Shown here in pieces: positions 396 to 26,267 of a stretch of 64,000 nt of DNA (position 1 is its first letter; each line of letters opens with the position of its first letter). Position numbers and translations under genes: made by a program. The DNA comes from an uncultured Eubacterium sp. (lineage in GTDB: Bacteria > Bacillota > Clostridia > Lachnospirales > Lachnospiraceae), in NCBI GenBank assembly GCA_910580075.1, contig CAJTVR010000008.1, forward strand, positions 20,312 through 84,311, written 5' to 3'. The notes beneath the pieces are model-generated. The model was not told the origin of the DNA. It ran no database searches and saw only the letters and a program-made list of their open reading frames with translations.

Positions 396-1166
396 TTATC
401 TTTTCCATTTCCTGGCCCTTCGAATAAAATAAACCGCATACTCAATCATTCTTCCAATGATTCCCTGCCCGCATTGATTACCTGAATTCTTTTTCTCATA
501 TATCCACCTTGTTACAAAATCCTGTGCATTGACAAATTCATGTGCATGTTTCTTTAAAAATGTTTCCAGCATACAAAAATCACTGTCAGTCATATTATTA
601 GGATGAAAGATAAATGTCTGCACTCCTCTTCCTGTAATTTTATGAGGGGTATCAAAAATAGCTGGGAGAAAGATCACATGTTGTTTCACATACGGACGTA
701 ATGCATATCCATCTGACACAAACAAAAATCTAGGCCTGAGCCTGTTTAATGCGCGTACCGTATTTTTGTCGAATGTATGACAGGGTGCAAAAAAACAAAC
801 CGGAATAATTCCCTTAGATTTCATGATTTCATATCCTTTTAAAATCATTTTAAACTGAATATCTTCTGGCTTTCCAGCCATTTCTGTCGCTGTTTCCACT
901 GCCATCTGAAATCTGCTGCCGGTATGAGTGTGCAGTGTATGGTGAAGCCCGTGCTGTGCAATTGTCCAGTGTTTTTCCTGCCAGATTCTGCATTTTTCCC
1001 AAAAACGGCTGTCTGTATCTTCCGTAAAAGTCTTATCCCGGTTATCCGGTATAATTCCGGCAACTGGCTGTATTTTGTATTGATCTAACAGCTCTTCCAT
1101 TCTGTGCCATTTCATTTGATTCATTTGCGGACAGGCATCGTCCAGCCGAAGTATAAAATATGCCAT
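396..1166 (-). CDS. Polysaccharide deacetylase-like (NodB/CE4-fold) protein
   Basis: 256 aa, no signal peptide. The N-terminus carries an Asp-Asp pair (D9, D10, in FILRLDDACP), like the first motif of NodB-type metal-dependent deacetylases. Residues 72-79 (HGLHHTLH) resemble the H-x-x-x-H metal motif, and CFFAPCHTFD near residue 125 matches the third motif. Family knowledge: such proteins remove N- or O-acetyl groups from sugars or are inactive relatives. It sits between the sugar formyltransferase and the GNAT gene in the EPS operon, so a role in tailoring a cytoplasmic sugar precursor is plausible. The exact substrate is unknown, and the motif spacing is not classical CE4, so it may belong to a divergent subgroup. 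Confidence 0.6.
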   Translation of the reverse strand: MAYFILRLDDACPQMNQMKWHRMEELLDQYKIQPVAGIIPDNRDKTFTEDTDSRFWEKCRIWQEKHWTIAQHGLHHTLHTHTGSRFQMAVETATEMAGKPEDIQFKMILKGYEIMKSKGIIPVCFFAPCHTFDKNTVRALNRLRPRFLFVSDGYALRPYVKQHVIFLPAIFDTPHKITGRGVQTFIFHPNNMTDSDFCMLETFLKKHAHEFVNAQDFVTRWIYEKKNSGNQCGQGIIGRMIEYAVYFIRRARKWKR

Positions 1167-1210
1167 ATGTACTCCATTTCTTTTCTGGTGTCAGACAAAG
1201 GAACCTTCAT

Positions 1211-2038
1211 TCATAAAAAATCAACCAAAATATCATAATCAGCCGTACTAATTCTTGCCCTTCTTTCATCTTCCCACAGCATAACTCCCGCTTTTTGCTC
1301 AGACCGGCAGTCTGTAATCTTCCAGGCAGTTACTTCTCTGCCCATAATCCTTGGAAGCTGGTATTCCCGAAACGAATATGCTCTCAGCTGATTTTGAATC
1401 TGATACGCTGTACCATTTAAATCTATTACTAAATTGTTATAATCAAGAACTTTTTTTGAAAAATAAGATGCTCCTTTTACCGGCTGATGATACGATTCAT
1501 AGCTTCCAGCCAGTAATGCTGCTGCGTTTTTTATAATAAGTATTTTTCCTTCTTCCATGCACTTTAGATACAAATCTCTGCTAGTCATATCATCACTCAA
1601 TTCAAATGATGACTGTGCAATAATCTTACCCGTATCAATTCCTGCATCTATTTCATGTAATGTAACACCTGCTTTTTCTTCTCCATATAAAATAGGCATA
1701 ACTGACGTATACATTCCCCTATATGCAGGAAGAAGCGAAAAATGAATGTTATACAGCTTCCCGTCTTTAAACATTTTGGGATTTAATATTCTGTCAAATT
1801 CGGCTGATATAAACACAAGATTCTCAATTTCATATAATTCTTCCATATTCTTTTCTATAAGTCCGTATTTTTTTATATGTGCACGGTACGAACGCTGCCA
1901 TCCATCTATTCCCATATCTGTTCTGTTGCAGCATGCCGCAAAATTACTATCATGCATATAATTATGAATCATATAATCCATTACATCACATGCGATATTA
2001 TTTTTTCCTGCCACACATATTGTTCTCTTAGCAGACAT
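1211..2038 (-). CDS. Sugar N-formyltransferase (N10-formyl-THF dependent)
   Basis: 275 aa, related to the catalytic domain of methionyl-tRNA formyltransferase. The Asn-His-Asp catalytic set is visible: N97 and H99 in YNIHFSLLPAYRG and D135 in DAGIDTGKII. It lies downstream of a 3,4-ketoisomerase and a DegT-type aminotransferase. That is the gene set which, in characterised Gram-negative pathways (QdtA-QdtB-QdtF), makes dTDP-3-formamido-3,6-dideoxyglucose. The inferred reaction is therefore transfer of a formyl group to the 3-amino group of a dTDP-3-amino-3,6-dideoxyhexose in the cytoplasm. A Qui4N-type substrate (VioF-like) is the main alternative and is less likely given the ketoisomerase. 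Confidence 0.75.
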   Translation of the reverse strand: MSAKRTICVAGKNNIACDVMDYMIHNYMHDSNFAACCNRTDMGIDGWQRSYRAHIKKYGLIEKNMEELYEIENLVFISAEFDRILNPKMFKDGKLYNIHFSLLPAYRGMYTSVMPILYGEEKAGVTLHEIDAGIDTGKIIAQSSFELSDDMTSRDLYLKCMEEGKILIIKNAAALLAGSYESYHQPVKGASYFSKKVLDYNNLVIDLNGTAYQIQNQLRAYSFREYQLPRIMGREVTAWKITDCRSEQKAGVMLWEDERRARISTADYDILVDFL

Positions 2039-2087
2039 ATCTCATTTCCCTTCCTGCTGACACTTCTCATTATTGAAAGTTATACAC

Positions 2088-3185
2088 TTATTTAAAATGA
2101 TTAACTGCTTCTATTACATATTGCACTTCTTTCTTTTTCATTCCATAATAAACCGGAAGGCTCAGTTCTGTCTGGCTGATTTTTTCTGCTACCGGCAAAT
2201 CCCCTTCTTTGATTCCTAAGTCTTTATAGCACTCCTGCAAATGTATAGGAATAGGATAATGCTTATTTGTCATAATTCCCTTTTTTAACAGATAATGTTC
2301 CAGTTCATCCCGCCTTTTGCTTTTAACTGCAAAAATATGCCATACAGGATCTGCATCAGAAATAACTGACGGTAGAATTATTTCTGGATTTGTAATACCT
2401 TCCAGATACATCTTTGCTATTTTTTTTCGCTTCCTATTCATTTTGTCTAAATAGGGAAGTTTTACATTTAAAAAAGCCGCCTGAAATTCGTCCAGTCTGG
2501 AATTGTATCCTTTGTAAATATGATGGTATTTATAATCGCATCCATAATTTCCTAAACTCTTAATTTTCTCAGCCATTTTACGATTATTTGTCACTACTGC
2601 ACCCGCATCACCCAGTGCACCCAGATTTTTCCCTGGATAAAAACTAAATGCAGCAGCATCGCCAAACGTACCTGCTTTCCTGCCTTTGTAAGATGCCCCA
2701 TGAGCCTGTGCACAATCCTCAATAATATACAGATTATGTTTACGGGCAATATTCATAAGGACATCCATTTCACACATCTGTCCGTAAAGATGCACCAGAA
2801 TCACTGCTTTTGTTTTTTCTGTAATCAATGGTTCAAATTTTTTTACATCAATATTAAATGTATGAATATCCGGCTCTGCCAGCACAGGTACTGCGCCCGA
2901 ATATGTAACAGCCAGCGCCGTTGCGATAAAAGTATTGGCCGGAACAATAACCTCATCCCCTTCTTTTATGCCAGCTGCTTTTAAAGCCAGCATCAGTGCA
3001 TCTAGTCCGCTTCCGGTTCCTATACAGTACTCTGCTCCAAGATATGCTGCAAATTTTTTCTCAAATTTCCGGTCTTCCGCTCCTCGTATATACCAGCTGC
3101 GATGAAGCACCCGCTCAAATGCTTCTTTTAACTCTCTGTTTAGTTCTCTTTCCATAGGAAGAAAACTTACAAATGGTACATTCAT
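2088..3185 (-). CDS. DegT/DnrJ/EryC1-family dTDP-sugar aminotransferase
   Basis: 365 aa PLP enzyme of the sugar aminotransferase family. Lys186 in [15 protein letters not shown] is the expected Schiff-base lysine, D157 in [12 protein letters not shown] is the pyridine-nitrogen aspartate, and GTGSGLDAL near residue 56 binds phosphate. Length is normal for the family. It starts 7 bases after the ketoisomerase gene, so the two are probably translated from one message. The inferred role is to aminate a dTDP-3-keto-6-deoxyhexose to the 3-amino-3,6-dideoxy sugar (FdtB/QdtB type). Gluco- versus galacto-configuration of the product is set by the ketoisomerase and cannot be told from sequence here. 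Confidence 0.85.
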
Positions 3186-3192
3186 GTATATT

Positions 3193-3609
3193 CTATTCCC
3201 TTCCTTGCAAATCTTTTTTTACAAAATCAAGAAATTCATCGTAATTTCGTATATAATCTGATTCATCATATAATTCAGAGGCCAGCACAAGCAGCACAGC
3301 ATCTTTAGAGAAATCATACATTTCACGCCACATGCTGTTTGGAACATATAGTCCCTCATACGGTTTTTCAAGAGGTATCACTTTTGTATCTGTTCCGTTA
3401 TCCAGCTTGATCTTACAGTTTCCATGAATGCAGACCAGAATCTGTTCCAATGATTTATGTGCATGATATCCTCTGACAACGCCCTCAGCTGTTTCATACA
3501 TGTAATAAACTCTTTTTATCGTAAACGGAATATCTTTGAATTCTTCCAATGCCACTAACTGTCCCCTGTCGTCTCCATGAGGCTGAAACATATATTTTAC
3601 AACCTGCAC
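3193..3609 (-). CDS. dTDP-4-keto-6-deoxyhexose 3,4-ketoisomerase (FdtA/QdtA family)
   Basis: 138 aa from a GTG start at 3609, preferred over the upstream ATG at 3636 because GAGGTG lies five bases before it and because it brings the protein to the family's usual length. This numbering also puts the cupin motif GYHAHK so that its histidines are H49 and H51, the positions of the catalytic pair in studied FdtA/QdtA enzymes. The enzyme moves the keto group of dTDP-4-keto-6-deoxyglucose from C4 to C3, the first committed step before amination by the next gene. The rmlA/rmlB genes that supply the substrate are not in the window. Confidence 0.85.
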
Positions 3610-3647
3610 AATAACACCTCTTTCTTTCAAGTACATTCTTTCTATTC

Positions 3648-4643
3648 TTACAGCCTGGACCCGGTTATGAAATATTTCAAGCCATAATAAAAATCATACA
3701 GCATCGCATCCATATATTTGATCCGATCCTTCCACGACGCCCCTTCTCTTTTCTTCGCTGTCCATTGAAGCTGGCGCAGACGCAGTTTTTTTAACAGCCC
3801 GTTGCACAATCCTCCTCTTACTTCATTGGAAATATAAATATGTTCCATAATATCCTGATAGTCACGCAAAAACTCCTGGTTCGCTGTATTGCTGATGCCG
3901 TTTAATTCATACTGCATCATACGGATATGCGCAAAATGAAATTTTTCTCCACGTTTTGCCAGATAAGGCCAGTATGTCATATCTTCAATTAACCGGTAAT
4001 CTTCCAGAAATCCTCCCGTCTCCCTTAAAAGATCCATGCGGTAAAACACAGAAGGCGTTGATATAATACATCTTGATGCCAGAAGTTCATTGCATTTTCT
4101 GCTGTCCAGCTTTTTTAAATAATTAATATCACGGTCAGAAGGTGTAACTGTACAAAGCCTCCCGTTTCTGGCTCTTAGCCTGTAAAACATCGTATTTTTC
4201 ACAACGTCTTTTTTCTGCTTCCCGGCTTGTCTGCCAGTGTTTCTTCTCAGCACATAAGTCTGTCCTGCTAAAATTCTTGCATTCAGCCGTTCTGCTGTTC
4301 TGACACATTTTGCAATCATATCGTCGCTGTAAAACGGATCATCTGTCGTAGCCAGTTTCACATACTTTCCTTTTGCAAGGCGGATTCCGGCATTGACATT
4401 TCTGCTGGTTCCCAGATTCTGCTCAAGATGGCTGATGACCACATTCTCTATATTTTCTTTTTGATGACATTTTATATACTTTCGTATCCGGTCTTCATAT
4501 TTTGCAAAATCAGGAGAACCGTCATCCTGCCAAATCAGTTCCAGCCTGGGATAGGTCTGGTTCAGTATACTGTCAAGCACCTGAAAAATACCTTCAAATT
4601 TTTTGTATGAAATCAATATTACAGACACTAACGGATCTGCCAT
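3648..4643 (-). CDS. GT2-family glycosyltransferase
   Basis: 331 aa. The N-terminus (PLVSVILISYKK) is the first strand of a GT-A fold, QDDGS near residue 40 binds nucleotide, and ATTDDPFYSDD near residue 98 supplies the DxD-like metal site. It should transfer one sugar from a nucleotide donor to the lipid-linked repeat unit on the inner face of the membrane. Twenty bases separate it from the upstream GT2 gene, and 38 bases lie before the ketoisomerase gene. Donor and linkage cannot be predicted. Confidence 0.85.
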   Translation of the reverse strand: MADPLVSVILISYKKFEGIFQVLDSILNQTYPRLELIWQDDGSPDFAKYEDRIRKYIKCHQKENIENVVISHLEQNLGTSRNVNAGIRLAKGKYVKLATTDDPFYSDDMIAKCVRTAERLNARILAGQTYVLRRNTGRQAGKQKKDVVKNTMFYRLRARNGRLCTVTPSDRDINYLKKLDSRKCNELLASRCIISTPSVFYRMDLLRETGGFLEDYRLIEDMTYWPYLAKRGEKFHFAHIRMMQYELNGISNTANQEFLRDYQDIMEHIYISNEVRGGLCNGLLKKLRLRQLQWTAKKREGASWKDRIKYMDAMLYDFYYGLKYFITGSRL

Positions 4644-4662
4644 TTAATCTGCTCCTTTTCCC

Positions 4663-5718
4663 TTAACTGTGTTCCTTCAAATGAAGCCGGCCAGTCATTA
4701 TTTTAGCTGCATGTATCAGGTTCCAGACAGCGTTATATACATAGCTGATTCTGCAGTAAGACCGGTATGAATCTTTGGAAAGCCTGTACAAAAACCCGAA
4801 CATCCCGTCATAAAATCCCTCTCTGCAGACACTTCCAATTTCCTCAAAATTTGTTTTCAGTATATGCACAGCAAATGTTCTTTCCTCTTTTGTGTATTCC
4901 CTGTATTGTCTGTTGTACTGAGCCTGATGTGCCATGAGGGAACGCAGCCACTTTTTCCTGCACATAGCCTGGATGCTCTCATCCATTTGTTCTGACACTG
5001 CATACCGGTACAGGCTGCCGTCTGTCGAAAGTGCTTCATACATACGGGCCCGGTTTTTTTTAGAATTTGTAGTGCTCTGCGGATTCTGTCTGTAATAATA
5101 AATTCCCTTTGTAAATAAAACATCCCTGCAGTTATAAAAAATTTTTCTGCTTGTAAATTCATCCCCGTTAATAAGCCCGGGATCAAATCTGACAGAAAGA
5201 ATCAAAGCCCGTCTTACAGCGATGCAGCCATGAATCGTCCAGTCCAGTGACAGCACAAACGCTCTTTTTCCATTCACAGCCTGTCCTGTAAAGCAGCTGG
5301 CTTTTGCAGTTTCTGTCAGAATTGTGCCATCGTCATTTACGGAATAGGAAACCGGAGATATTGCCGAGGGCAGACGGCCGGCTGCCTTCAGATATTTTTC
5401 TGCCATCTTTTCATACTCTTTGAAACAGTGCCTGTCCAGATAATCATCTGCGTCAAGTATCTGTACATAATCACCGGTCACATATAACAGAGCCGTATTT
5501 CTGGCCGCGGCTGCCGTACCGGAATGTTTTTGATGTACCGCTTTAATCCTCTCATCAGCCTTTGCAAATCCGTCAGCCAGAGCGCCCGTGCGGTCCGAAG
5601 ATCCATCGTCCACAATAATAAGCTCCCAGTTTCCATAGGACTGGTTTCTGACCGAATCTACTGCCTCTTTGATATATTTTTCCGCATTATAAGCGGGCAT
5701 GATAATAGAATATTTCAT
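4663..5718 (-). CDS. GT2-family glycosyltransferase
   Basis: 351 aa. Starts with the classical GT2 sequence KYSIIMPAYNAEKYI, followed by VDDGSSDRTG (nucleotide binding) and ILDADDYLD (DxD metal site). The last hundred residues are basic and amphipathic (SYCRISYVYNAVWNL), as in peripheral EPS transferases. It is one of three consecutive GT2 genes, each adding a different sugar to the repeat unit. It starts 12 bases after the preceding gene's stop. Confidence 0.88.
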   Translation of the reverse strand: MKYSIIMPAYNAEKYIKEAVDSVRNQSYGNWELIIVDDGSSDRTGALADGFAKADERIKAVHQKHSGTAAAARNTALLYVTGDYVQILDADDYLDRHCFKEYEKMAEKYLKAAGRLPSAISPVSYSVNDDGTILTETAKASCFTGQAVNGKRAFVLSLDWTIHGCIAVRRALILSVRFDPGLINGDEFTSRKIFYNCRDVLFTKGIYYYRQNPQSTTNSKKNRARMYEALSTDGSLYRYAVSEQMDESIQAMCRKKWLRSLMAHQAQYNRQYREYTKEERTFAVHILKTNFEEIGSVCREGFYDGMFGFLYRLSKDSYRSYCRISYVYNAVWNLIHAAKIMTGRLHLKEHS

Positions 5719-5730
5719 AAATAGTTTCCT

Positions 5731-6798
5731 CTAAAACAGATTTCGAAGTGAGATATGCAGACAGCTGCTTACAGCCAGTACGAATAAATACAATTTTAAC
5801 TGTATGCATTTAAAATAAATCCATTTTGTCTGTTTATAATCCAGACTGTTTAAATCTGACAAAGCCTGGCTGATATAAGGATGCTTCACCATTTCTTTTA
5901 AAGCATTCCGTTTCAGGTGCAGGCCAAGCGGGCATTCGGGATGATTGAAAGTAATCATAATCTGTGCCAGCAGCTGCTCCAGGCAGAACCGTTCATAGCC
6001 GTATCTGTGACATGCGTCTGCTGTATGGATATACTGTCCCAGCTCCTTCATCCAAGCACATCTTCTGTGCCACTCGCCGCTATGATATTTTTTTGTTATG
6101 GAAGCGGCATGCTGGCGGTAGTAATAACCATACTCTTCCAGCAAAAGCACCTTATCTGCCCTTCCTGTGATCTGATAAATAAAGGGCAGGTCTTCTCCTC
6201 CTGACCTCATATGTTCCGGGAAACGGACATCCGCATGTTTTCTTAAAAACTCTGTTTTAAACAGCTTCGCCCATGCCGTTCCAAACATCGGAAGCTGCAG
6301 GGATTTTGTCAGATAAGTCGGGTCCAGCACCTGGAGCTGCAGGGATTTTATTTCTTTACCTAAAAACAGCTTTTCTTTTGGCCCGATATAGTCTGTATGT
6401 TCTGTTATTCCATTTTGGGCAGCTGAAAAGCTCCATACCGTCATATCCGGAAAACCGGCAAGGCTGCTTTTTACATATGCCTTTTCAAGCATATCTTTTT
6501 CCATCCAGTCATCCCCGTCTACAAAACAGATATATGTTCCTTTTGCTTCTGCAGCTGCCTGGTTTCGAACCGCTGAAAGTCCGCGGTTTTTTCTGTTTTC
6601 AATTACCCGGACACGTTTATCAAAAGCCTGGTAATCTCTTAATAAAGCCAGATTTTCCTCACAGGTATGATCGCTTACCAGCAAAATCTCAATTTCTTTG
6701 AGCGTCTGCGCACAAAGAGAGTCGATGCATTTTTTTAAATATTCATTGCTGATTTGATAAACTGCTACCGCAGCTGTCACTTTTGGTTCATCCGTCAT
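5731..6798 (-). CDS. GT2-family glycosyltransferase
   Basis: 355 aa. The N-terminal GT-A core shows AAVAVYQISNEYL, then LVSDHT in place of the more usual VDDGS, then FVDGDDWM as the DxD motif. The DxD region is intact, so it is probably active. The C-terminus ends in a hydrophobic stretch (LKLYLFVLAVSSCLHI) that may anchor it to the membrane. Five bases separate it from the truncated sulfotransferase gene. Donor unknown. Confidence 0.85.
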   Translation of the reverse strand: MTDEPKVTAAVAVYQISNEYLKKCIDSLCAQTLKEIEILLVSDHTCEENLALLRDYQAFDKRVRVIENRKNRGLSAVRNQAAAEAKGTYICFVDGDDWMEKDMLEKAYVKSSLAGFPDMTVWSFSAAQNGITEHTDYIGPKEKLFLGKEIKSLQLQVLDPTYLTKSLQLPMFGTAWAKLFKTEFLRKHADVRFPEHMRSGGEDLPFIYQITGRADKVLLLEEYGYYYRQHAASITKKYHSGEWHRRCAWMKELGQYIHTADACHRYGYERFCLEQLLAQIMITFNHPECPLGLHLKRNALKEMVKHPYISQALSDLNSLDYKQTKWIYFKCIQLKLYLFVLAVSSCLHISLRNLF

Positions 6799-6803
6799 TT
6801 ATG

Positions 6804-7190
6804 TCACATTGTCCTTTTTATTAATGTTTTTGCAGCTGGTTTTCTCTTATCATATCCTGTAAAATCGTATAAATAACCGGCAAGATGTTTCTCAATATAA
6901 GCAGTCTCCTTTTTTACCGCAGAATTTCCTGCAAACAGCTGCGTATTTTGAATCGAAACTGCCGGATTAAAAAAGGCTTTTTTTCTGACATGCTTATGAA
7001 TGCCTAAAAAGTTTTCAATTTTTCTGACCGTATCTTCGTATTGATAAATCAAATCTTCAAAATGAATCAGAAGTACATTTTTACTGCTGTAATCAGCCCC
7101 GTTTCTGCAGTAGCGGTAATAATCTGCAAAAAGCAGATCGTTAACTGCACTCGCACCGGTTAAACCAATGCCGCAAATTCCAGCTACCAT
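6804..7190 (-). pseudogene. Sulfotransferase-like gene with an internal in-frame deletion
   Basis: 128 aa, open from ATG to stop with a good RBS (GGAGAAAAAT). The first 20 residues (GICGIGLTGASAVNDLL) match the 5'-phosphosulfate-binding P-loop start of the sulfotransferase-like EPS proteins. The next residues jump directly to FADYYRY and LLIHFEDLIYQYEDTVRKIE, which belong near the C-terminus of that fold. The central 150-200 residues that normally bind acceptor and the 3'-phosphate are missing. I infer an internal in-frame deletion and loss of function; the reading frame and RBS survive. A naturally tiny member of the family is the alternative. Confidence 0.6.
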
Positions 7191-7199
7191 ATTTTTCTC

Positions 7200-8360
7200 C
7201 TAATTACTGATACTTTTTTCTTCTATCTTATCTTCCATAAAAAGCGGCAGACACAGATACATCAGTATCATTGGCAAAGTCATCAGACAGTTTTCTGCCA
7301 TGGATATACATGCAAACAAAATACATGACATAACCGGCAGATATTTCCATCTTCCCGCATAGGAAGAAAATGAAAACCGAAATGCACGCAGGCATAAGAG
7401 CACTATAAAAATAAAATAAAAGAATCCATTGAAGAATCCATAGTTCTCCATCAGTCCCAGATAAACATTGTGGGAAGCAAAGTCCGTTTTTGCAGATCCG
7501 TCACTGAACATTTCAACGTGTTTCCACGTTTCCTGCCACAAATACATCCTTCCATTTGTAAAGTCTCCCCGTTCTGTTAATATTTTTGATTTCATAAATA
7601 TTGAAGAATCTAAATATCCAAATGACCAGATCAAATATAACATTCCCAGAATAAAAACAGCGCCCAGCATTACCCATACTAATTTTTTTCGAAACAGACG
7701 GATCTGAATTTTATATTTTTTCTGATCTGCGATCATCAGCATAACAATCTGCATAGCCACTGCTGCAAATGCACTTCTGCAGCTTGATATAAATACAAAA
7801 AACAGACTGGCTGCCACAAATACTGCTGTCCTTCCTGTTTTTCTGCCATATACTGCATCTGCTGTCAGCTTTGAAATATAAAATGTAAACAATGCAGCAG
7901 CAAATATCCCAAATGAATTCGAGGTTGCCATTCCTCCCGCAAAATTGGAAAGTGTCAGCCTCTGCTTTGTAAAGGCATAAATAAGCACCATGAAAGAAAA
8001 GCCTGCAGAAATCCGGCAGATCTTATCATACATTTTTTCATAACTGTCTGCAAAAACAGCAGACCTGATCAGCAGATACATAAAAAACATCGCTGTCCCA
8101 TAAACAAAAGGCCTGATACTGGCATAAAGAAACCCGTCGATGATAAATGTAGAAATAAACAGGCCATATACTCCGTCAATAACAGTGAAATTCCTTTTTG
8201 CCAGCATACAGATTTTTCTGACAGACACCAGCGCTGTGCCTATAAACAAAAAGAACAAAACCCTTTCAGATATCTGCCCGATTACAAGATATGCAAATCC
8301 TGACGCCACAAATAACAACAGTGCCGCTGTATACAAGTATCTGTTACACCGTATTTTCAT
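7200..8360 (-). CDS. Wzy-like polysaccharide polymerase / O-antigen ligase-family membrane protein
   Basis: 386 aa and strongly hydrophobic, with about ten predicted membrane segments. The family signature appears near residue 297 (ASHNVYLGLMENYGFF), the H-N-x-x-L motif of the large outer loop in Wzy/WaaL-type proteins. It would polymerise lipid-linked repeat units at the outer face of the membrane. The start overlaps the end of the upstream GT4 gene by 17 bases. No Wzx flippase is visible, so that function must lie beyond the left edge or elsewhere. Confidence 0.8.
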   Translation of the reverse strand: MKIRCNRYLYTAALLLFVASGFAYLVIGQISERVLFFLFIGTALVSVRKICMLAKRNFTVIDGVYGLFISTFIIDGFLYASIRPFVYGTAMFFMYLLIRSAVFADSYEKMYDKICRISAGFSFMVLIYAFTKQRLTLSNFAGGMATSNSFGIFAAALFTFYISKLTADAVYGRKTGRTAVFVAASLFFVFISSCRSAFAAVAMQIVMLMIADQKKYKIQIRLFRKKLVWVMLGAVFILGMLYLIWSFGYLDSSIFMKSKILTERGDFTNGRMYLWQETWKHVEMFSDGSAKTDFASHNVYLGLMENYGFFNGFFYFIFIVLLCLRAFRFSFSSYAGRWKYLPVMSCILFACISMAENCLMTLPMILMYLCLPLFMEDKIEEKSISN

Positions 8361-9411
8361 ATTTTTTTACTGCTTTCCCGTAAATTCTCTTGATATTTTC
8401 TATATACCGGCTGCGGTTATCCAGCTTTTCTGCACGCAAACGCGCATGTTTAGATTTGTCTGCATAGTAATGTTCATCCGAAATCAGACGGCAGATTTCT
8501 TTTACATATTCATTCCCGTGCAGGCAGATTTTTCCGCATTCTTCGCTGACAATCTCTTTCAGCCCTCCCGCTCCGCTGCATATGACAGGTTTTCCCAAAG
8601 CCATCGCTTCAACTGCCGCCAGACCGAATCCTTCCCATTTCGAAGGCATGCACAGAATTTTAGCATGCTTTAGAATCCGGTATGGATTTTCCAAAAATCC
8701 TGTCATCGTAATTACATCCTCAAGTCCTAAATACCGAATCCGCTCCTGTACCTGGCCGCTTAGTTCCCCGTCTCCAATCATAACCGCTTTTACCTCTGGT
8801 CTTTTTTTATAAACTCTGGCTGTAATTTCTACAAATGCTATCGGATTCTTTGGTTCGGAAAGCCTCCCTAGAAATGCCAGGCTGTAGTCATTTTCCGAAT
8901 CCGGCTTCTGTCTGGATTTTTGAATAATCTGCATCGTGTCTATTGGATTGTGAATGACAGCAGATTTGTGCCTTAAGTATGTTCCAAAAATAAAATCGTC
9001 CATCACACAGTCCGATACCGTCAGGATTTTATAATACCGCATACAGGAAATGCCATAAGCTGCAGAATAAAGCCCAAACCTGCGAAGCCATGGAGCATTA
9101 TTGTGCAGATGACTGATCAGAGGAACTTTCGTTTTCAGCATGGAACAAAAAAGCCCGGCCCGGAAATCGTGCGCATGAATCAGGTCCGGCTGTATCTTAT
9201 TTACAGCCCGGCTAAGCTCTCTGATGCAGATTTTTTTTATTCTATAGTGTGGAATTTTGTGTTTTAACAGGATATCATGTATACTGCCATCTGGTGATAC
9301 ATATACACTGTCAGCCATTTCTCTGGTATGATTTATAATTGTTATGACGACATGTTCCGCACCAGAATAGCTTCCCGATGCCAGTACATGCATCACACGG
9401 ATTTTAGACAT
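8344..9411 (-). CDS. GT4-family glycosyltransferase
   Basis: 355 aa GT-B enzyme. The N-terminal acceptor domain opens with IRVMHVLASGSYSGAEH. The donor domain has FLGRLSEPKNP and the E-x7-E motif in KWEGFGLAAVEAMALGKPV, which contacts the nucleotide sugar. It overlaps the upstream GT4 gene by one base (TGATG), suggesting translational coupling. Retaining chemistry is typical for GT4; the sugar is unknown. Confidence 0.88.
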   Translation of the reverse strand: MSKIRVMHVLASGSYSGAEHVVITIINHTREMADSVYVSPDGSIHDILLKHKIPHYRIKKICIRELSRAVNKIQPDLIHAHDFRAGLFCSMLKTKVPLISHLHNNAPWLRRFGLYSAAYGISCMRYYKILTVSDCVMDDFIFGTYLRHKSAVIHNPIDTMQIIQKSRQKPDSENDYSLAFLGRLSEPKNPIAFVEITARVYKKRPEVKAVMIGDGELSGQVQERIRYLGLEDVITMTGFLENPYRILKHAKILCMPSKWEGFGLAAVEAMALGKPVICSGAGGLKEIVSEECGKICLHGNEYVKEICRLISDEHYYADKSKHARLRAEKLDNRSRYIENIKRIYGKAVKKYENTV

Positions 9412-10634
9412 CAGAAACCTCCTTTGGCATAAATCTTTTTCATCTTTGCACTGACAGCTTCCAGTCTGAATTTTTTTAATCTGCTGTATGGTTTTCTCTC
9501 AGACGTCATAACTGTCCCTTTTTCTGACAGACTGATCACCGCAGCAGCGATTTCCTTATGGTCTGCCGGATTCACAAGACAGCTGTTTTCAAGTCCTTCC
9601 AGCAGGTCCCGGTTTCCCCTGATCCGGCCTGCTATACATGGCAGGCCGGAAGCCATAGCCTCCATAAGGCTCATGTTAAGCCCTTCTCTTTTGGAGGGCA
9701 GAATAAAAATATCTGCTGCCGCAAGCAGTCCGGGTATATCCGTACGGTATCCAAGCAGATGAAGATGAGCGCTGACTCCCAGCCTTTGTGCCAGCTTTTC
9801 CAGTTCATTTCCCAGACTTCCTTTTCCGGCAATCATGTAATGCAGGCTGGCGTATTTGAGCGGATCTGCCTTTTTTATTTCAAAAAGTGCTTCAATGACA
9901 GCTTTATGATTTTTATTCTCATTCAGTTCTCCTGCTGAAAAAAGCATGATATCACTGTCTTTCAGGCACAGGCTGGCACGTACCTTTCCCCTGCATGTAT
10001 TGTGAGGTGCAAATTTTTCAATATTCACACCGGCTCCCGGCAGAGCATGTATCCGCTTTGCATGGAAATGTTTTTTTGCCCTCTGATAGTCTTCCTTTGT
10101 AATCGTAATCAGATCATCTGTCACCCATGAAAACAGCCATTCAGCCGGATAATAAAGCAGCCAGTTCCGTTTTGGAGCACCGCTGAAAAAATGAAATCCG
10201 TGTGCCGTATAAAATACTCTCGTTCCGTATGTTTTCCTGTACTTTGCAGCTTCTGCACGAACGAGCGCAGCACATATTGGAGAATGACAGTGAATAAGGT
10301 CAAAGTTTTGTTTCAGTAGTTTTTGAACCTGAAGTGCAGACTTAAGCTGGCATCCGGCTTTCCAGATGTTCCTGGAAAAATCAATCTGTACGGTATGTAC
10401 GCCTTTTGCCCTCATTTCTTTCGCAAAAGCGTCTATTTTTTCCTGTGAGTTAATGTCTTCTTTACTGTGGAAATTAGCGGCTGCTGTAACCTCATAACCC
10501 ATTTCAAGAAGGATTTGTATATTATTTCTGTTAAAATTGTCCAAAAGCGAAGCCACAGAAGCGATACAAAGTGCCTGTTTCTGATGCAGACAATTGTTAT
10601 TCCCTGCCTTCCCATTATGAATATCCAGTTTCAT
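9411..10634 (-). CDS. GT4-family glycosyltransferase (EpsD-like)
   Basis: 407 aa GT-B enzyme of the EpsD-like group that commonly follows the chain-length regulator in Firmicute EPS operons. Visible motifs are DLIHCHSPICAAL, YTAHGFHFFSGAP and the donor-site E-x7-E in KREGLNMSLMEAMASGLP. The first 20 residues are polar and not conserved-looking, so a slightly later start is possible. It lies 56 bases downstream of the chain-length gene. By position it may act early in assembling the repeat unit. Confidence 0.87.
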   Translation of the reverse strand: MKLDIHNGKAGNNNCLHQKQALCIASVASLLDNFNRNNIQILLEMGYEVTAAANFHSKEDINSQEKIDAFAKEMRAKGVHTVQIDFSRNIWKAGCQLKSALQVQKLLKQNFDLIHCHSPICAALVRAEAAKYRKTYGTRVFYTAHGFHFFSGAPKRNWLLYYPAEWLFSWVTDDLITITKEDYQRAKKHFHAKRIHALPGAGVNIEKFAPHNTCRGKVRASLCLKDSDIMLFSAGELNENKNHKAVIEALFEIKKADPLKYASLHYMIAGKGSLGNELEKLAQRLGVSAHLHLLGYRTDIPGLLAAADIFILPSKREGLNMSLMEAMASGLPCIAGRIRGNRDLLEGLENSCLVNPADHKEIAAAVISLSEKGTVMTSERKPYSRLKKFRLEAVSAKMKKIYAKGGF

Positions 10635-10690
10635 TTTTCATCTCCAGTCAAAACAGCATATTCCAGCTTTAAGGATTTTCGCAGGCAGTC

Positions 10691-12097
10691 TTACCTGATA
10701 TCCAGCAATACAGCCCCTATGACAGGCACATCATTTTCAAGATAAAACTCTATTGCATTATTAAGTACAGAATAGGAAGTTGCTCCTATTTTGCACACTG
10801 CAGCGACTGCGAAATCATGTTCCGGCAGTTCCCACTGTGAACTGCCTTTTGATAAACTCTCCCCCGCTGCTGCCTGTATGCCCTGGTCTTTCAGCTGATC
10901 TGTCAAATATTTCAAAAATTCTGTTTCCTGTATCCCAGGTGTAAACTCTGTCAGCAGGCACAGCTTTTTAACCTTCTGTTTTTTACACGCCAGACTGATC
11001 CGGGCCATCATCTGTCTAACACTGTCTTCACCATTTACCGGAGCGCTCATAGATGCTTTGAGTTTTAATTTCCCATAAAACGGGATTCTGTAGTACGATT
11101 TGAATTCCTGCTCGCTTCTAATGACGCCTTTCAGTAAATAACTGCAGGCAAACATACAGCCGTAAATAAAAATGCCGCCACAGCATCCTAAGATGATGTA
11201 TTTGAAACTGATCTGATTAGCCGCCGGATTGTCCGCTTCTGCTGATTCTTCTTCCTGATCCGGCTGCGCTTCCTTTTCATATACCTGCTTTTGCTCTTCA
11301 TTTAGTGCACTGACCAGCGCATTCAGATTTGCCTGCTGTGATTTTAGAAGTTCTCTTTTTTCACGCTGCTGAGCCTGCAAAGTACTGTCTGTTCTTGTAC
11401 TATGCGTATCATCCAGAAGTGTCAGTATATGATTCCCGCAGAATTTTTTTACAGAAGAAGCATATTCTTTCAGGGAAATCTGTATAGCTTCAGCCAGCTG
11501 GTCTGCCATTTCAGCATCTTTTCCTGTCACTTCGATATACAGTAGTTTTTGAGTTTTAAAAGCATCTGGATTTTCCAAAATCACCTGTCTTTGAGCTTCT
11601 GCTGCTTCCCATACTGAAATCAGTTCTGTCAGGTAAGGAGCTTTTATCGAATCAAATTTCTTATTCTCTTTTATTACAGCCTCTGCTGCTTTTCCATATC
11701 TAAGAAATGATAAATAACTTTCAGCTATTTTAGGAAGTTCCTGAATGGATGCATCCTCTATGCAGTAGAGCAAAACCACGTGTTCCTTAGAATATGCATC
11801 CGCCTGCATCAGCACAGAGTTCTCTAAATATTCTTCCAGTCCGTCTATATCTGTTTTTATCCGCACCGCTTCCGTAACACTGCTGCGTTCTTCCTTTGTT
11901 AATTCCTTCTCTTGTGATACAGTTTCAGCTGATGTATCCGCAGTTCTATTTTTCAGATAACTATATCCGCCTAAAAGTAATGCTCCGGCAATTGCAAATA
12001 CCGCTGCCTGCTTCCATTTTCTGCAAAAACTGTAAAGTAAGTCCAGAAAATCAGCTTCTATATCATCTGATTTTTTGTAATCATTCATTTTTTCCAT
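10691..12097 (-). CDS. Wzz-like polysaccharide co-polymerase with a degenerate kinase-like tail
   Basis: 468 aa. One membrane segment near residues 33-50, an extracytoplasmic helical region rich in Lys/Glu/Gln, and a second segment near residues 296-320 (IILGCCGGIFIYGCMF) give the Wzz/YveK topology that sets chain length. The ~140 residues after the second segment resemble the BY-kinase fold (KVKKLCLLTEF, then VPVIGAVLLD), but no Walker A P-loop is visible. It therefore looks like a fused, catalytically dead kinase domain rather than a CapB/YwqD enzyme. It is the second gene of the operon, behind the XRE regulator. Confidence 0.75.
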   Translation of the reverse strand: MEKMNDYKKSDDIEADFLDLLYSFCRKWKQAAVFAIAGALLLGGYSYLKNRTADTSAETVSQEKELTKEERSSVTEAVRIKTDIDGLEEYLENSVLMQADAYSKEHVVLLYCIEDASIQELPKIAESYLSFLRYGKAAEAVIKENKKFDSIKAPYLTELISVWEAAEAQRQVILENPDAFKTQKLLYIEVTGKDAEMADQLAEAIQISLKEYASSVKKFCGNHILTLLDDTHSTRTDSTLQAQQREKRELLKSQQANLNALVSALNEEQKQVYEKEAQPDQEEESAEADNPAANQISFKYIILGCCGGIFIYGCMFACSYLLKGVIRSEQEFKSYYRIPFYGKLKLKASMSAPVNGEDSVRQMMARISLACKKQKVKKLCLLTEFTPGIQETEFLKYLTDQLKDQGIQAAAGESLSKGSSQWELPEHDFAVAAVCKIGATSYSVLNNAIEFYLENDVPVIGAVLLDIR

Positions 12098-12136: not shown

Positions 12137-12469
12137 CTATGTGCTGCTCATGATTTCCGCTACAGACTGCATGATTCGAATGTACATAGCATAACTGCTA
12201 TTTTTCTCCCTCGAACTCGTCCAGATTTTCTTCAGCTCATGACCAGACAGATTCGGAATTCCAAACAGCAGCTCTTCTGCATCAGATTCTAAAATACTGC
12301 AGATATTTGCAAATGTTTCCAGGCTCATACAGCGCGTCCCGCGTTCTATATGCCCCATAAATGAAAGGCAGATCCCGCATTTTTTCGCAAGCGCATCCTG
12401 TGACATCCCTTTTGCCTTTCTTGCCTGGCGAATCCTCTTTCCAATACCGGTATAGTCCAGTTTCTGCAT
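12137..12469 (-). CDS. XRE-family transcriptional regulator heading the EPS operon
   Basis: 110 aa. Residues 8-65 form a Cro/CI-type helix-turn-helix (IRQARKAKGMSQDALAKKCG, then FMGHIERGTR). The last 40 residues are unassigned. GGAGG lies five bases before the ATG. It is the first gene downstream of the promoter at 12580-12608, so it is co-transcribed with the polysaccharide genes and may control them. Similar small XRE genes head EPS operons in other Lachnospiraceae (recall, not searched). Confidence 0.85.
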   Translation of the reverse strand: MQKLDYTGIGKRIRQARKAKGMSQDALAKKCGICLSFMGHIERGTRCMSLETFANICSILESDAEELLFGIPNLSGHELKKIWTSSREKNSSYAMYIRIMQSVAEIMSST

Positions 12470-12546
12470 ATACTCCTCCCACCTTTTTCATGTCTTAAAT
12501 CAAACCTGCACAGATTGCTGCAGTTTCTTAAAAATAATTTTCATAC

Positions 12547-12870
12547 ATAACTTTTTGTTATAAAATGTTATCTAAAAGCATTCTATAGCAATTCTTTTAT
12601 TTTTGCAACTCTTAAGATTAAATTGGTATATTTTCAATAATTTCTCATTGATATTTTGCACTTTTTCTGTTTGTTTTTGTGCAAAATGTTTAAATTCTCT
12701 TACTTCAAGGCATCACACAAAATATTTTATCAGATATAGATTAAATGTGTAAATGTATCATTTCAAAGATATAAAAGTCATAACCAGATCCCGCAGACCC
12801 CGCATAAATTAAGAAGCTCATGGATTTTCAAACTTGATTTCATACATAACATTTTATAACAAATTGTTGC
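12547..12870. repeat. Predicted invertible promoter segment bounded by inverted repeats
   Basis: An exact 18-bp inverted repeat is present: TTTGTTATAAAATGTTAT at 12554-12571 and its reverse complement at 12846-12863. Allowing three mismatches the match extends to about 26 bases. Each copy holds a recombinase-core-like site with short inverted arms: ATAAC-N5-GTTAT at 12547-12561 and ATAAC-N5-GTTGC at 12856-12870. A direct 13-mer TTTCATACATAAC also occurs at both ends (12539-12551, 12838-12850). The ~275 bases inside are AT-rich and contain the only good promoter, pointing at the EPS genes. This accounts for much of the 540-base gap between the XRE gene and 13010. Inversion has not been observed; it is inferred from architecture. 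Confidence 0.6.
12580..12608 (-). promoter_or_regulatory. Sigma-A promoter of the EPS operon, inside the predicted invertible segment
   Basis: On the minus strand, -35 TTGCAA (12608-12603), a 17-base spacer and -10 TAGAAT (12585-12580) point toward the XRE/EPS genes. Transcription would start near 12573, leaving a leader of about 100 bases. Farther upstream lies a 9-bp inverted repeat (ATTTTGCAC at 12653-12661, GTGCAAAAT at 12679-12687) that could bind a regulator and would move with the promoter. Confidence 0.65.
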
Positions 12871-12898: not shown

Positions 12899-12984
12899 AA
12901 GGAGCTGCTGCACTAAGCAAACTATATACAGGATATAGTATACAGCTATATCTTGTATCAATTTTCTTAATGCGGCAGCCCCTT
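12899..12984. repeat. Palindromic MITE-like element, family A copy 1
   Basis: 86 bp with imperfect 19-base terminal inverted repeats (12899-12917 and 12966-12984; 16 of 19 match), ends reading AAGGAGCTGC / GCAGCCCCTT. The 15-mer TACAGGATATAGTAT at 12927-12941 recurs as its reverse complement at 54423-54437 inside a second element with similar ends. It sits between the promoter switch and the PIN gene and may also act as a terminator hairpin for the PIN module. Confidence 0.6.
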
Positions 12985-13009: not shown

Positions 13010-13822
13010 TTATTGTTTATATCTCAGACTGCCATTCTGCAGCACTTCCAGCCTGCCCGCATACATTTCCTCGATAATTTGTCCGCATGGAACCTTACAC
13101 ATTTGCATCTGCTTTGACATATCGTGAACTCTGAAGGTCATCTGATTATGTTTTCTGCATTCATCAAGGTATGTCTGAATATATGGTTCTGCATCTTTCC
13201 TCGAAAGAATGCCTTCCTTGTTAAGCCGCATAAATGCAGAAAGCACACTAATGCATCTTGCACCGCCAAGACTTACTATCCCATTTCGTGCATTTTTATC
13301 GTCAGAACAGAAAACATATATTTGTTCACCCAGTTTTGTACTCAGCATTTGAAAGAGTACATAACTCTTTAACTCTCCAAGATTCTTTCCTTCACCGATT
13401 TTATCACAATCTGCCTTTAACTCTTGAAGAAAAGTCTCCTTCGATAACGCTGAATAATCCAATGCCTGAAGTCTTGTAAAATTTTCCTCAAAATAGCCAT
13501 TCTTATATGCTTCACAGCCATTCCTGAGCATGCCTGCATACACAGCCTGCGCAGAATCTGAATAGATGGCATGCAATTCATCCATTATTTCCTCATCAAA
13601 AACACAATGAACAGTTCCATCTGAATTCTTTGCTTTCAGCCACTCAGATGAATTTCCTATATTATGCCTTTCCAGCTCAGTCTTTATCTGCTCATGACAA
13701 TAAAACCGGTACCCCTGCATCTCCATGATCCGGTCGATCATTCGATTCTGGTCATCCTTCCGGATCAGATGAGTCTTTGAAATGAAATCAGTGTCCAGAA
13801 GAGCATATTTTACTTTTGCCAC
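13010..13822 (-). CDS. PIN-domain protein, probable toxin of a three-gene module
   Basis: 270 aa. The N-terminus KYALLDTDFISK supplies D10 and D12. E50 (IKTELER), E144/E150 and the pair D174-D175 (FCSDDKNARNG) complete the acidic set of a PIN-type Mg-dependent nuclease. It is longer than VapC toxins (about 130 aa), with an ~80-residue C-terminal extension of unknown role. It begins 9 bases after the ImmA/IrrE-like gene and follows an XRE gene, so the three form one operon. RNA cleavage as toxin activity is an inference from the fold. Confidence 0.7.
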   Translation of the reverse strand: MAKVKYALLDTDFISKTHLIRKDDQNRMIDRIMEMQGYRFYCHEQIKTELERHNIGNSSEWLKAKNSDGTVHCVFDEEIMDELHAIYSDSAQAVYAGMLRNGCEAYKNGYFEENFTRLQALDYSALSKETFLQELKADCDKIGEGKNLGELKSYVLFQMLSTKLGEQIYVFCSDDKNARNGIVSLGGARCISVLSAFMRLNKEGILSRKDAEPYIQTYLDECRKHNQMTFRVHDMSKQMQMCKVPCGQIIEEMYAGRLEVLQNGSLRYKQ

Positions 13823-13831
13823 ATGCTCACC

Positions 13832-14653
13832 TTAACCTTCATTACGAAAGCCCTTTCTGATTTTTTCCAGGTATTCTCTGTCTGATTCCTCCCTGCTATC
13901 TGTTAAAAGATCGTTTTCACTGTTATATTCCATATCATCAAGCAGACTGCCAAAGTATAAAAGCTCCCTGCTGTTTTGCTGCCATCCTAAAGCCTTTCCG
14001 GTAAGCATTATCCGCTCTGATATAAAAGAAGCATCAGCCTTTAGCAGTTCCCCTGCTTTAGCAGGTGTAATATTATGATTCTCAGCCAGGCGCAATACAG
14101 CCGCCTTATACGGTAGTGCAAATAATTCCATCAGTGTCAGCACATCATCTACCCATATTTTCTCACAATTGATACCATAAATCTTAGTCTGCTCATCCAG
14201 TATACGATCCGGCATCAGCAACAGTCCGGCAAATGCATTAGCTTCAAGATCTTCCTGCGACACAGCCAGATCATCAGCCGTTTTAGAATCCAGTAACGAT
14301 CCGCTTGCAATCGTATCCGGATCTATATCTTCCGCATAGCAATGAATATGATACAGCTCATGACCTACGGCAAAAATCTGTTTGCAGATGGCAAGTTCTG
14401 AATTCACACAAAGAAAGAGCGTTCCTTTTTTTACGAATGTAAATGCCCACAGTTCCTCATCCTTAAACGGATACCTGAGTATTTCTAAAGGCAGTTCCCG
14501 CTTCCTTGCATAATTTGCAGCGATTCCAAAAATAGAATCACGAATGATCGTATTTCCACAATAATTTGCAGCAAAAGACTTTGCCTGAAAATCTATCTTT
14601 TCAAATTGCCCGGGCTGCCTGCTGAATAGGCTTTCCTCAAAAATATCTCCCAT
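13832..14653 (-). CDS. ImmA/IrrE-family metallopeptidase (COG2856-like)
   Basis: 273 aa. The zinc site is clear: H98-E99-L-Y-H102 in AVGHELYHIHCY, with a candidate third ligand around E137 in LEANAFAGLLLMP, the usual E-x-x-A-x-x-FA-x-x-LLMP block. Proteins of this family cleave or inactivate a partner XRE repressor in mobile elements and stress responses, and COG2856-XRE pairs are known as toxin-antitoxin-like modules. Its ATG overlaps the stop of the upstream XRE gene (TGATG), so expression is coupled. Substrate is most simply the XRE protein; not shown. Confidence 0.82.
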   Translation of the reverse strand: MGDIFEESLFSRQPGQFEKIDFQAKSFAANYCGNTIIRDSIFGIAANYARKRELPLEILRYPFKDEELWAFTFVKKGTLFLCVNSELAICKQIFAVGHELYHIHCYAEDIDPDTIASGSLLDSKTADDLAVSQEDLEANAFAGLLLMPDRILDEQTKIYGINCEKIWVDDVLTLMELFALPYKAAVLRLAENHNITPAKAGELLKADASFISERIMLTGKALGWQQNSRELLYFGSLLDDMEYNSENDLLTDSREESDREYLEKIRKGFRNEG

Positions 14654-15030
14654 CAGTCTTCCTCCCAGGCAGTCATCATAACATTTCCATTCTCACGAAC
14701 TCTTTTATGAAAGAGAATCATGTCAGCAAGCTCATCGGCAAGCTGCAGGGCTTGTTTTGCCTGTTCAGACTGAACCTTTCCCATAAAAGCATGAACCGCA
14801 CTGGTATCAGCATGCACTGAAGATATCCTTGTCAGTTCCTCCATTTTCACATCAAGGTAATCCGCAATGGATTTAAGCTCAGCTGCATGAATCATACGTG
14901 TACCATTAAGCATCTTATTTACAGTCTGTTTATTTGTTCCGAGAGCATCTGCGAGTCCTGTCTGTTTTTTATTCTGCTTTTTAAGCAGCGCAAGTATATT
15001 TCCTGCAATCATCATATTCATATTAACCAT
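14653..15030 (-). CDS. XRE-family regulator, antitoxin-like, first gene of the module
   Basis: 125 aa from the ATG at 15030. That start is preferred because AGAAGGAGG lies seven bases before it, while the longer frame to 15084 has no comparable site and would begin within three bases of the -10 element. Residues 10-65 form a helix-turn-helix (LLKKQNKKQTGLADALGTN) with a C-terminal helical domain (EQAKQALQLADELADMILF) likely for dimerisation. It should repress its own promoter at 15076-15104 and may be the target of the adjacent peptidase. Confidence 0.82.
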   Translation of the reverse strand: MVNMNMMIAGNILALLKKQNKKQTGLADALGTNKQTVNKMLNGTRMIHAAELKSIADYLDVKMEELTRISSVHADTSAVHAFMGKVQSEQAKQALQLADELADMILFHKRVRENGNVMMTAWEED

Positions 15031-15075
15031 TGAATCTGCCTCCTTCTCTGGTAAGAATCTCATTTTCTCACCTAT

Positions 15076-15104
15076 ATTATACATCGTAAAACCACAATGG
15101 TCAA
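15076..15104 (-). promoter_or_regulatory. Sigma-A promoter of the XRE/ImmA/PIN operon
   Basis: Minus strand -35 TTGACC (15104-15099), 17-base spacer, -10 TATAAT (15081-15076). Transcription would start near 15069, about 40 bases before the ATG at 15030. It is one of the strongest-looking promoters in the window, as expected for an autorepressed module. Confidence 0.75.
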
Positions 15105-15356: not shown

Positions 15357-15782
15357 TTACACATTCGTCTGATTCAGCGACTGATCCAGCTGGCTTTCTA
15401 ATTCTTCTGCCGCTTTCTGCTGTGCCTGGGCATCGACTTCTGCTGTCTTATCTTTTGAGGTAAATTTATTTACAAAATCCGGTACCATATCCAGAATTTT
15501 TGTGATACCATCCTGATTTTTGACATTTACAAGCTTTGTTGTACCGTTTTGAATCACCAGTACTGCACTTGGTGTAATTTTACCGCCCATACCGCCGCCG
15601 CCACTGTTTTTGTTTTCACCTGTAAATGCTCCTGCTGCAACACCAAAGGTCACATCTACCAGCGGAAGAATAATGGTTTCGCCAATATGAACGGCATCAC
15701 CTACTACGGTTTTGGTTGTAATGAAACTGTCCATGCCTTTAAATAAGGATGCGACTGTTGTGCTGAAACTGTTGTCTGACAT
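15357..15782 (-). CDS. gerW: Sporulation protein GerW/YtfJ
   Basis: 141 aa. The start SFSTTVASLFKGMDSFI, the glycine-rich GGGGMGGKITPSAVLVI and the acidic, Gln-rich tail are typical of GerW (YtfJ), a spore coat-associated protein needed for normal germination in Bacillus. AGGAGG precedes the ATG. It lies next to a DUF2953 gene, as ytfJ lies next to ytfI in Bacillus subtilis. It suggests the organism forms spores. Confidence 0.9.
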   Translation of the reverse strand: MSDNSFSTTVASLFKGMDSFITTKTVVGDAVHIGETIILPLVDVTFGVAAGAFTGENKNSGGGGMGGKITPSAVLVIQNGTTKLVNVKNQDGITKILDMVPDFVNKFTSKDKTAEVDAQAQQKAAEELESQLDQSLNQTNV

Positions 15783-15919
15783 CTGTTTTTCCTCCTGTTT
15801 CTCAGAATATAGTTTCTACCTGTAATATTTCAGATATACTGCCCCGTTACTCTGTTTTTATTATTTACTGTATCAGGCAGCCTTTTGAACTTTTTTATGG
15901 CTGCTGTATCAAAAATCCG

Positions 15920-26174: not shown

Positions 26175-26267
26175 TCAATGCATATATTTTGAAATAGAAA
26201 TTCTATTTGTGCATATTTTCATCTTTCTGCATATTGCCATACTATGAATTTACCTATAAAATGTTAT
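26175..26267 (+). promoter_or_regulatory. Recombinase upstream region sharing a 13-mer with the EPS promoter switch
   Basis: TATAAAATGTTAT at 26255-26267 is identical to the core of the 18-bp inverted repeat at 12554-12571/12846-12863. Its first six bases could serve as a -10 (TATAAA) with TTGCCA (26234-26239) at a short 15-base spacing. A hairpin AAATAGA-AAT-TCTATTT lies farther upstream, near 26190-26210. If the recombinase binds this motif it would cover its own promoter. The match could be chance in AT-rich DNA. Confidence 0.4.

Follow-up and report, generated by a model that had tools for sequence, protein, structure and literature searches.

A probable invertible promoter ahead of an XRE-headed exopolysaccharide operon in a relative of Eubacterium plexicaudatum, and its sister loci

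We propose, at a probability of roughly 85%, that positions 12572-12845 of the window (the whole 64,000-nucleotide stretch of uncultured Eubacterium sp. DNA analysed here) are an invertible segment that carries the promoter of an XRE-headed exopolysaccharide (EPS) operon, likely flipped between ON, the orientation as written, and OFF by a small tyrosine recombinase. The invertible promoter switch taken by itself is highly probable; that the inverting enzyme belongs to a small 191-aa recombinase family, the weakest step, is probable to a lesser degree. The initial annotation had already read this region as a phase-variable EPS promoter, and that reading is supported by relatives, in which matched site pairs were found at 104 of 120 loci and the segment occurs in both directions. 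The elements of the switch and its surroundings are as follows.

12572-12845, no strand: 274-bp segment predicted to invert, inversion being seen at relatives only
12547-12571, minus strand: gene-proximal recombination site, reading ATAACTTTT-TGTTATA-AAATGTTAT on the plus strand; the same site type occurs at sister loci
12846-12870, plus strand: distal recombination site, inverted, reading GCAACAATT-TGTTATA-AAATGTTAT when inverted; spacer identical
12608-12580, minus strand: predicted promoter TTGCAA-17-TAGAAT, 8 bp from the gene-proximal site and facing the XRE gene (ON)
12137-12469, minus strand: XRE/HTH_3 protein of 110 aa, the operon's first gene, by family match and with homologs in relatives
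396-12097, minus strand: EPS genes, taken as a single operon from strand and spacing
12899-12984, no strand: large terminator-like hairpin 3' of the gene at 13010-13822, at -44.6 kcal/mol and z -7.0

An 18-bp repeat, TTTGTTATAAAATGTTAT, lies on the plus strand at 12554-12571 and recurs as an exact inverted copy at 12846-12863, 274 bases away. The inverted repeat described earlier around the promoter was thus confirmed in its coordinates, and it is unique: in a scan of the 64 kb, this pair was the only exact inverted repeat found of at least 16 bp with a gap of 80-1500 bp. With up to 3 mismatches allowed, the repeat has three matches in the window, against a shuffle mean of 0.21 (0/100 shuffles reached three). 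Each of the two 25-bp sites consists of 9-bp arms that flank one common 7-bp spacer, TGTTATA. The outer arm of the distal site, GCAACAATT, departs from the consensus at positions 1, 2 and 7, and among 99 arms a G at position 1 was found once and a C at position 2 seven times. Such a weakened distal site could be inactive, leaving the window's EPS genes fixed ON while sister loci invert. We consider a locked switch quite improbable, as the window's spacers are still identical and as another locus, L174, is assembled in both orientations despite GCAAC arms at two sites.

The window also holds a 12-bp direct repeat, TTCATACATAAC, at 12540-12551 and 12839-12850, which together with the inverted ends recalls a MITE-like mobile element with terminal inverted repeats that happened to carry a promoter. 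This is scarcely credible: the second copy of the direct repeat is inside the segment, where a target duplication would be outside, and among relatives the structure recurs in the same position before the XRE gene of 104 loci, where spacers differ and segments share short similarity only.

The predicted promoter faces the XRE gene across the gene-proximal site, which is 77 bp from the XRE ATG, itself preceded by GGAGG. A consensus promoter scan of 2.5 kb is not significant alone (7 matches, compared with 8.6 +/- 3.2 in shuffles), so the case for 12608-12580 comes from its conservation across loci: in 22 hand-picked aligned sequences, 21 from other loci plus the window, the TTG.AA and TA.AAT columns are invariant. 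The promoter proposed in the initial annotation is therefore present and conserved, but it is not the sole good one, because a second promoter-like site at 12753-12724, on the same strand and segment, scores 10 of 12. The assignment of the written orientation as ON also fits the alignment. In the flipped state the promoter had been expected to face a palindromic element and the end of a "PIN" gene; a strong hairpin does lie there, at 12899-12984, whereas the PIN label was not confirmed, the 270-aa product of 13010-13822 having no Pfam match even at E 1. Beyond that gene, an IrrE-like peptidase and an XRE protein encoded at 13832-15084 on the minus strand match the candidate phage-defence families PDC-M69B (E 3e-41) and PDC-M69A (E 7e-17), and this pair may form, with the 270-aa gene, a defence module beside the switch.

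Downstream of the operon's XRE gene, a 468-aa protein without any Pfam or family match over cut-off is encoded on the same strand. The EPS gene set comprises two GT1 and three GT2 glycosyltransferases, FdtA, a DegT aminotransferase, a formyltransferase and a DUF2334 protein and, below cut-off, Wzy_C-like and sulfotransferase-like proteins.

A search with the XRE protein, in which each species was represented by a single genome, yielded 62 loci. The best of these occur several to a genome in the group of Eubacterium plexicaudatum, which consists of uncultured Eubacterium and Lachnospiraceae MAGs, assembly B36_36_MI_H and strain ASF492. Thirteen genomes of this genus (G001 to G013) each hold 1-23 XRE matches at 1e-8, among the matches listed. 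Because the window's best stretch in the genus, 15363-15800, is only 89% identical, the window likely represents another species of the same group, as judged from sequence.

In the first 42 upstream regions, inverted pairs with arms ATAACATTT / AAATGTTAT were found, whose centre is common within a pair and not among loci. We then compiled a census of 139 regions upstream of XRE genes in 11 genomes, from the matches listed, 120 of them at least 360 bp long. At each locus the best pair was chosen by arm score alone, and the match between spacers was judged afterwards. An arm pair is present at 115/120 loci, and the 7-bp spacers are inverted-matched at 6-7 of 7 positions at 104/120, exactly so at 102. 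Resampled upstream regions gave a matched pair in 1/360 cases, and 2000 cross-locus pairings of sites gave an exact spacer match in 1.5%. A matched pair is absent at 16 of the 120 loci, in some for reasons of method: L148 was lost on a tie after its spacers had matched in earlier scoring, and L174 is a tandem locus. Set aside from the census were G004:C42 (two rows, analysed as L030), second copies within L174 and L186, L032, the ASF492 fragments 610886, 610957 (L050) and 628860, the weak matches G001:C122, G004:C70 and G009:3994905, and L252.

Spacers of 59 kinds occur among 99 oriented loci. Equality within a pair, combined with difference among loci, is what repeated strand exchange would leave. 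We suggest that the 9-bp arms are bound by a recombinase and that strand exchange takes place across the 7-bp spacer; both spacers of a pair would have to match for it, which would keep the pair equal while loci drift apart. The same spacers speak against a reading to which we give very little credence, namely that the repeats are an operator pair bound by the XRE protein or another regulator, around a segment that never inverts. XRE proteins bind palindromes, the arms are palindromic and a regulator gene is close by; a regulator, however, would not keep 7-bp centres equal within pairs and different among loci, nor would it account for two loci (L030 and L174) assembled in both orientations. 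We also considered whether the spacers serve as orthogonal addresses. Spacers are shared in 11/520 pairs within genomes and in 71/4331 between them, which gives no sign of selection against cross-talk, and the idea was dropped.

The genes behind these promoters resemble those in the window. Homologs of the window's EPS proteins follow the XRE gene at 31 of 38 loci with flanks; four of the seven loci that lack them (L032-L035) also show no site pair. A promoter-plus-site model built from 22 sequences, the window included, matched 12 of the 13 genus genomes, with 9-26 matches in eleven, one in G011 and none in G013, and these matches mostly precede XRE genes. In a sample of 299 genomes of the family, G001, itself of the genus, was the sole match at 1e-4; since 16 candidates were scored per genome, weak relatives may be missed in this sample. 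As a separate observation, G010 has 14 promoter-site matches and 3 XRE loci, among the matches listed, and an excess is also seen at G001:C33 and G001:C38:4663; with more matches than XRE loci, the first gene behind some of the switches may be of another kind.

The direction of the promoter was called at the 104 matched loci from a -10 motif near one end, which gave 93 OFF, 6 ON and 5 unclear; by alignment, the window is in the ON direction. A second promoter type, in which ACTAATAGAAC adjoins the site and the TTGCAA box is lacking, was recognized by eye at about 18 of the 99 switches, among them L129, L144, L172, L180, L186, L193, L204, L219, L242 and L246. Four of the six ON calls (L186, L193, L204 and L246) rest on this type and are less sure, and L186 and L204 were tied in earlier direction scoring. 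In a separate case, L179 (G004:C2:110793-111287), two promoter-site matches of equal score point toward each other at a distance of about 430 bp, and the direction call is unclear.

The inverted orientation, which the initial annotation had suggested looking for in related genomes, was found at two loci of G004, each present both ways with promoters in both directions. One contig carries L030 twice, with 11 N between the copies. Their flanks, 133 and 597 bp long, agree at 100% identity, and so does a 351-bp stretch, made up of a 299-bp segment plus sites, which stands inverted in one copy relative to the other. L174 is a tandem locus joined by 29 N, in which a 297-bp stretch is 100% identical in inverted orientation between flanks of 99.1% and 99.8% identity. 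The promoter-site model matches in G004 point opposite ways with equal scores. Less probably, these N-joined scaffolds represent true tandem duplications with one copy inverted. A third case comes from two contigs of G002 (L171 and L259), which have an exact 55-nt stretch of promoter plus site in common and diverge at the site's outer edge, beyond which one contig continues into XRE and the other into a different flank; this could alternatively be a shared repeat rather than a junction pair. Draft contigs end within 400 bp upstream of the XRE gene at 20/125 loci and downstream at 0/125. When contig-end partners were sought in 20 further contig regions, L171/L259 was the one junction pair obtained, and a second candidate, L160/L275, proved to be an ordinary continuation. 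Taken together, these observations make it very likely that both orientations in relatives are real. Neither circumstance that would have spoken against the initial annotation, a lack of inverted relatives or unconserved repeats, applies. Among 79 loci, window included, there was no clean case of an orthologous locus lying opposite in two species; the long segment alignments among them, 31 in plus and 11 in minus orientation, cover 110-261 bp at 68-88% identity and serve as supporting evidence only.

With the segment ON, the XRE and EPS genes would be transcribed from the promoter, which lies 8 bp inside the gene-proximal site; with the segment OFF, this promoter would run into the hairpin at 12899-12984. 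An enzyme of the 191-aa family would act in trans on many such switches. The window contains one tyrosine recombinase, encoded outside the operon and 13.4 kb away from the switch.

26309-26884, plus strand: tyrosine recombinase of 191 aa, the candidate inverting enzyme, in an open frame from 26207
26244-26266, plus strand: lone site-like sequence, one arm of which is good (AAATGTTA), ahead of the start of the recombinase

This protein scores 82.1 bits against PF00589 (cut-off 27.1), and it has no match at 1e-5 among PDB sequences. R40, H139, R142, H165 and Y174 are kept in 42/42 family members and K70 in 41/42; we take these R-K-H-R-H-Y columns to be the catalytic residues. FimB and FimE are likewise small, being catalytic-domain-only recombinases of about 200 aa, and their fimS is one locus in E. 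coli; by score, the 191-aa protein is not of the FimB/FimE type (39.8 against a cut-off of 222 for NF007371, and 25.5 against 221 for NF007370). Relatives 83-95% identical occur in G001, G002, G003, G004 and G009, and a second type, 69-73% identical, in G001, G003, G004, G008, G009 and G012. In ASF492 the two closest genes of the small family are located at 1658536-1659108 of the main contig and at 33594-34166 of contig 6.

What may tie the small recombinase family to this site type is that some of its own genes lie bracketed by such sites. Outside the genus, 12 of 27 recombinase genes (L294, L295, L317-L319, L322, L323, L327, L328, L330, L337 and L339) sit between inverted sites of the type (C/T)AACATTT-N7-AAATGTT(A/G) with equal spacers; inside the genus this holds for 1/15 loci, L292. 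Bracketing was judged by hand from the positions of pair and gene. Site-pair scores at the bracketed genes are 22-28; in 126 resampled loci, a score of 22 was attained once and a score of 24 never. We predict that the bracketed genes form self-inverting cassettes, one of them in this genus and the others in different genera of the Lachnospiraceae. Around the window's own recombinase gene (26309-26884) no site pair was found, the single good arm lying upstream. At another recombinase locus, L284 of G008, short inverted copies of the site lie on both sides of the gene, at 1465-1479 and 2173-2187. Such site-like sequences beside the recombinase gene, in the window and at L284, possibly reflect autoregulation or the remnant of a cassette.

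The choice of enzyme is where an alternative has to be taken most seriously. No relative of the small recombinase was found at 1e-30 in the draft genomes G005, G006, G007, G010, G011 and G013, of which G005, G006 and G007 have 8, 8 and 11 switches and G010 has 14 promoter-site matches. The switch could then be the same and its enzyme another, with a chromosomal Xer-type recombinase flipping the segments and the small recombinases serving their own cassettes only. A XerD-like protein, 62-100% identical, is present in 11/13 genus genomes, including G005, G006, G007 and G010, which lack the small family, and a XerS-like protein in 9/9 genomes looked at; furthermore, dif half-sites contain the arm core ATGTTA as well. 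But G008, with 7 scored switches, yielded no XerD-like protein, and G013, where the promoter-site model has no match, does possess one, and XerD-like and further Xer-like families track the switches no better than the small recombinase family does. Bracketing by switch-type sites was seen for small recombinase genes, 12 of 27 outside the genus, and for no Xer gene. We regard a Xer-type enzyme as unlikely and favor the small recombinase family as the inverting enzyme.

Invertible promoters in gut bacteria were reportedly surveyed in 2019, and the kind of switch described here is known; what is new is the host group, the target class, the site, the head gene and the likely enzyme. The capsule promoters of B. 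fragilis are inverted by the serine invertase FinA/Mpi at seven loci and by the tyrosine recombinase Tsr19 at the large capsule (PMC3090145, PMC5903667). The resemblance lies in many polysaccharide loci per genome with invertible promoters, which in B. fragilis are described there as ON and OFF within one population (PMC3090145, PMC5903667). Unlike that system, the present set belongs to a genus of Clostridia and has an XRE head, locus-specific 7-bp spacers and a likely 191-aa tyrosine recombinase. The FinA/Mpi loci of B. fragilis are headed by Upx-type antiterminators, whereas the head gene in the window encodes an HTH_3/XRE protein.

The Cdi switches of C. difficile have segments of 154-230 bp, and the master tyrosine recombinase RecV acts there in trans on several loci (PMC5903667). 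Short invertible segments and a tyrosine recombinase acting in trans, here a putative one, are common to both systems. Compared by description, RecV targets cwpV, flagella and signalling genes through mostly unrelated repeats, whereas the window's set has one arm consensus at many EPS loci. Inversions in Clostridia are placed mostly near signalling genes, and the fimS segment of E. coli is given as 296 bp (PMC5903667), which resembles the present promoter segments of about 300 bp.

In hCom2, according to the portion of the source at hand, inverton group 139 with invertase group 35 comprises 33 invertons, 32 of them in class Clostridia and nearly all near a tyrosine recombinase (PMC11892184). 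By description, the enzyme of that group may be of the same family as the self-bracketed cassettes. No link of group 139 to EPS is described in that portion, and the EPS-linked inverton groups are from Bacteroidota (PMC11892184), unlike the Clostridia set of the window. Among the matches listed, by title and opening of the abstract, from a search of non-subscription journal papers, there was no EPS switch set in Lachnospiraceae.

Given the many promoter-site matches per genome, mostly before XRE genes, promoter flipping is likely a means by which the cell changes its coat. Promoter inversion as a way of switching coats at many loci has been described mainly in Bacteroidota, and here it would reach a like scale in a genus of Clostridia. 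More tentatively, we can imagine a wardrobe in the manner of B. fragilis outside the Bacteroidota, in which about 10-25 polysaccharide operons per genome each have their own flipping promoter. All of them would be served in trans by a single family of small tyrosine recombinases, which in other Lachnospiraceae forms a self-inverting cassette and whose sites would have been recruited before XRE-headed operons; the matched 7-bp spacers would be the address of a locus, and roughly one coat would be ON at any moment. A strict rule of one coat at a time did not hold up: ON calls never exceed one per genome, yet with 6 ON among 99 this arises by chance at P = 0.13 and is a hint only. The locus-specific spacer pairs also provide a natural series of site variants for one recombinase family.

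E. plexicaudatum ASF492, a strain that belongs to the altered Schaedler flora of mice, is a named carrier with a 6.35-Mb contig, in which coat variation, phage escape and host recognition would be directly testable. Of its switches, 12 were scored and one was ON. This ON switch (L029, 9016-9978) has 938 bp between site starts, and its extra DNA appears by eye to be IS200/IS605-type transposase-like. A further ON switch lies outside the census at L050, 9576-10326, where the XRE gene behind it is broken by a frameshift or stops.
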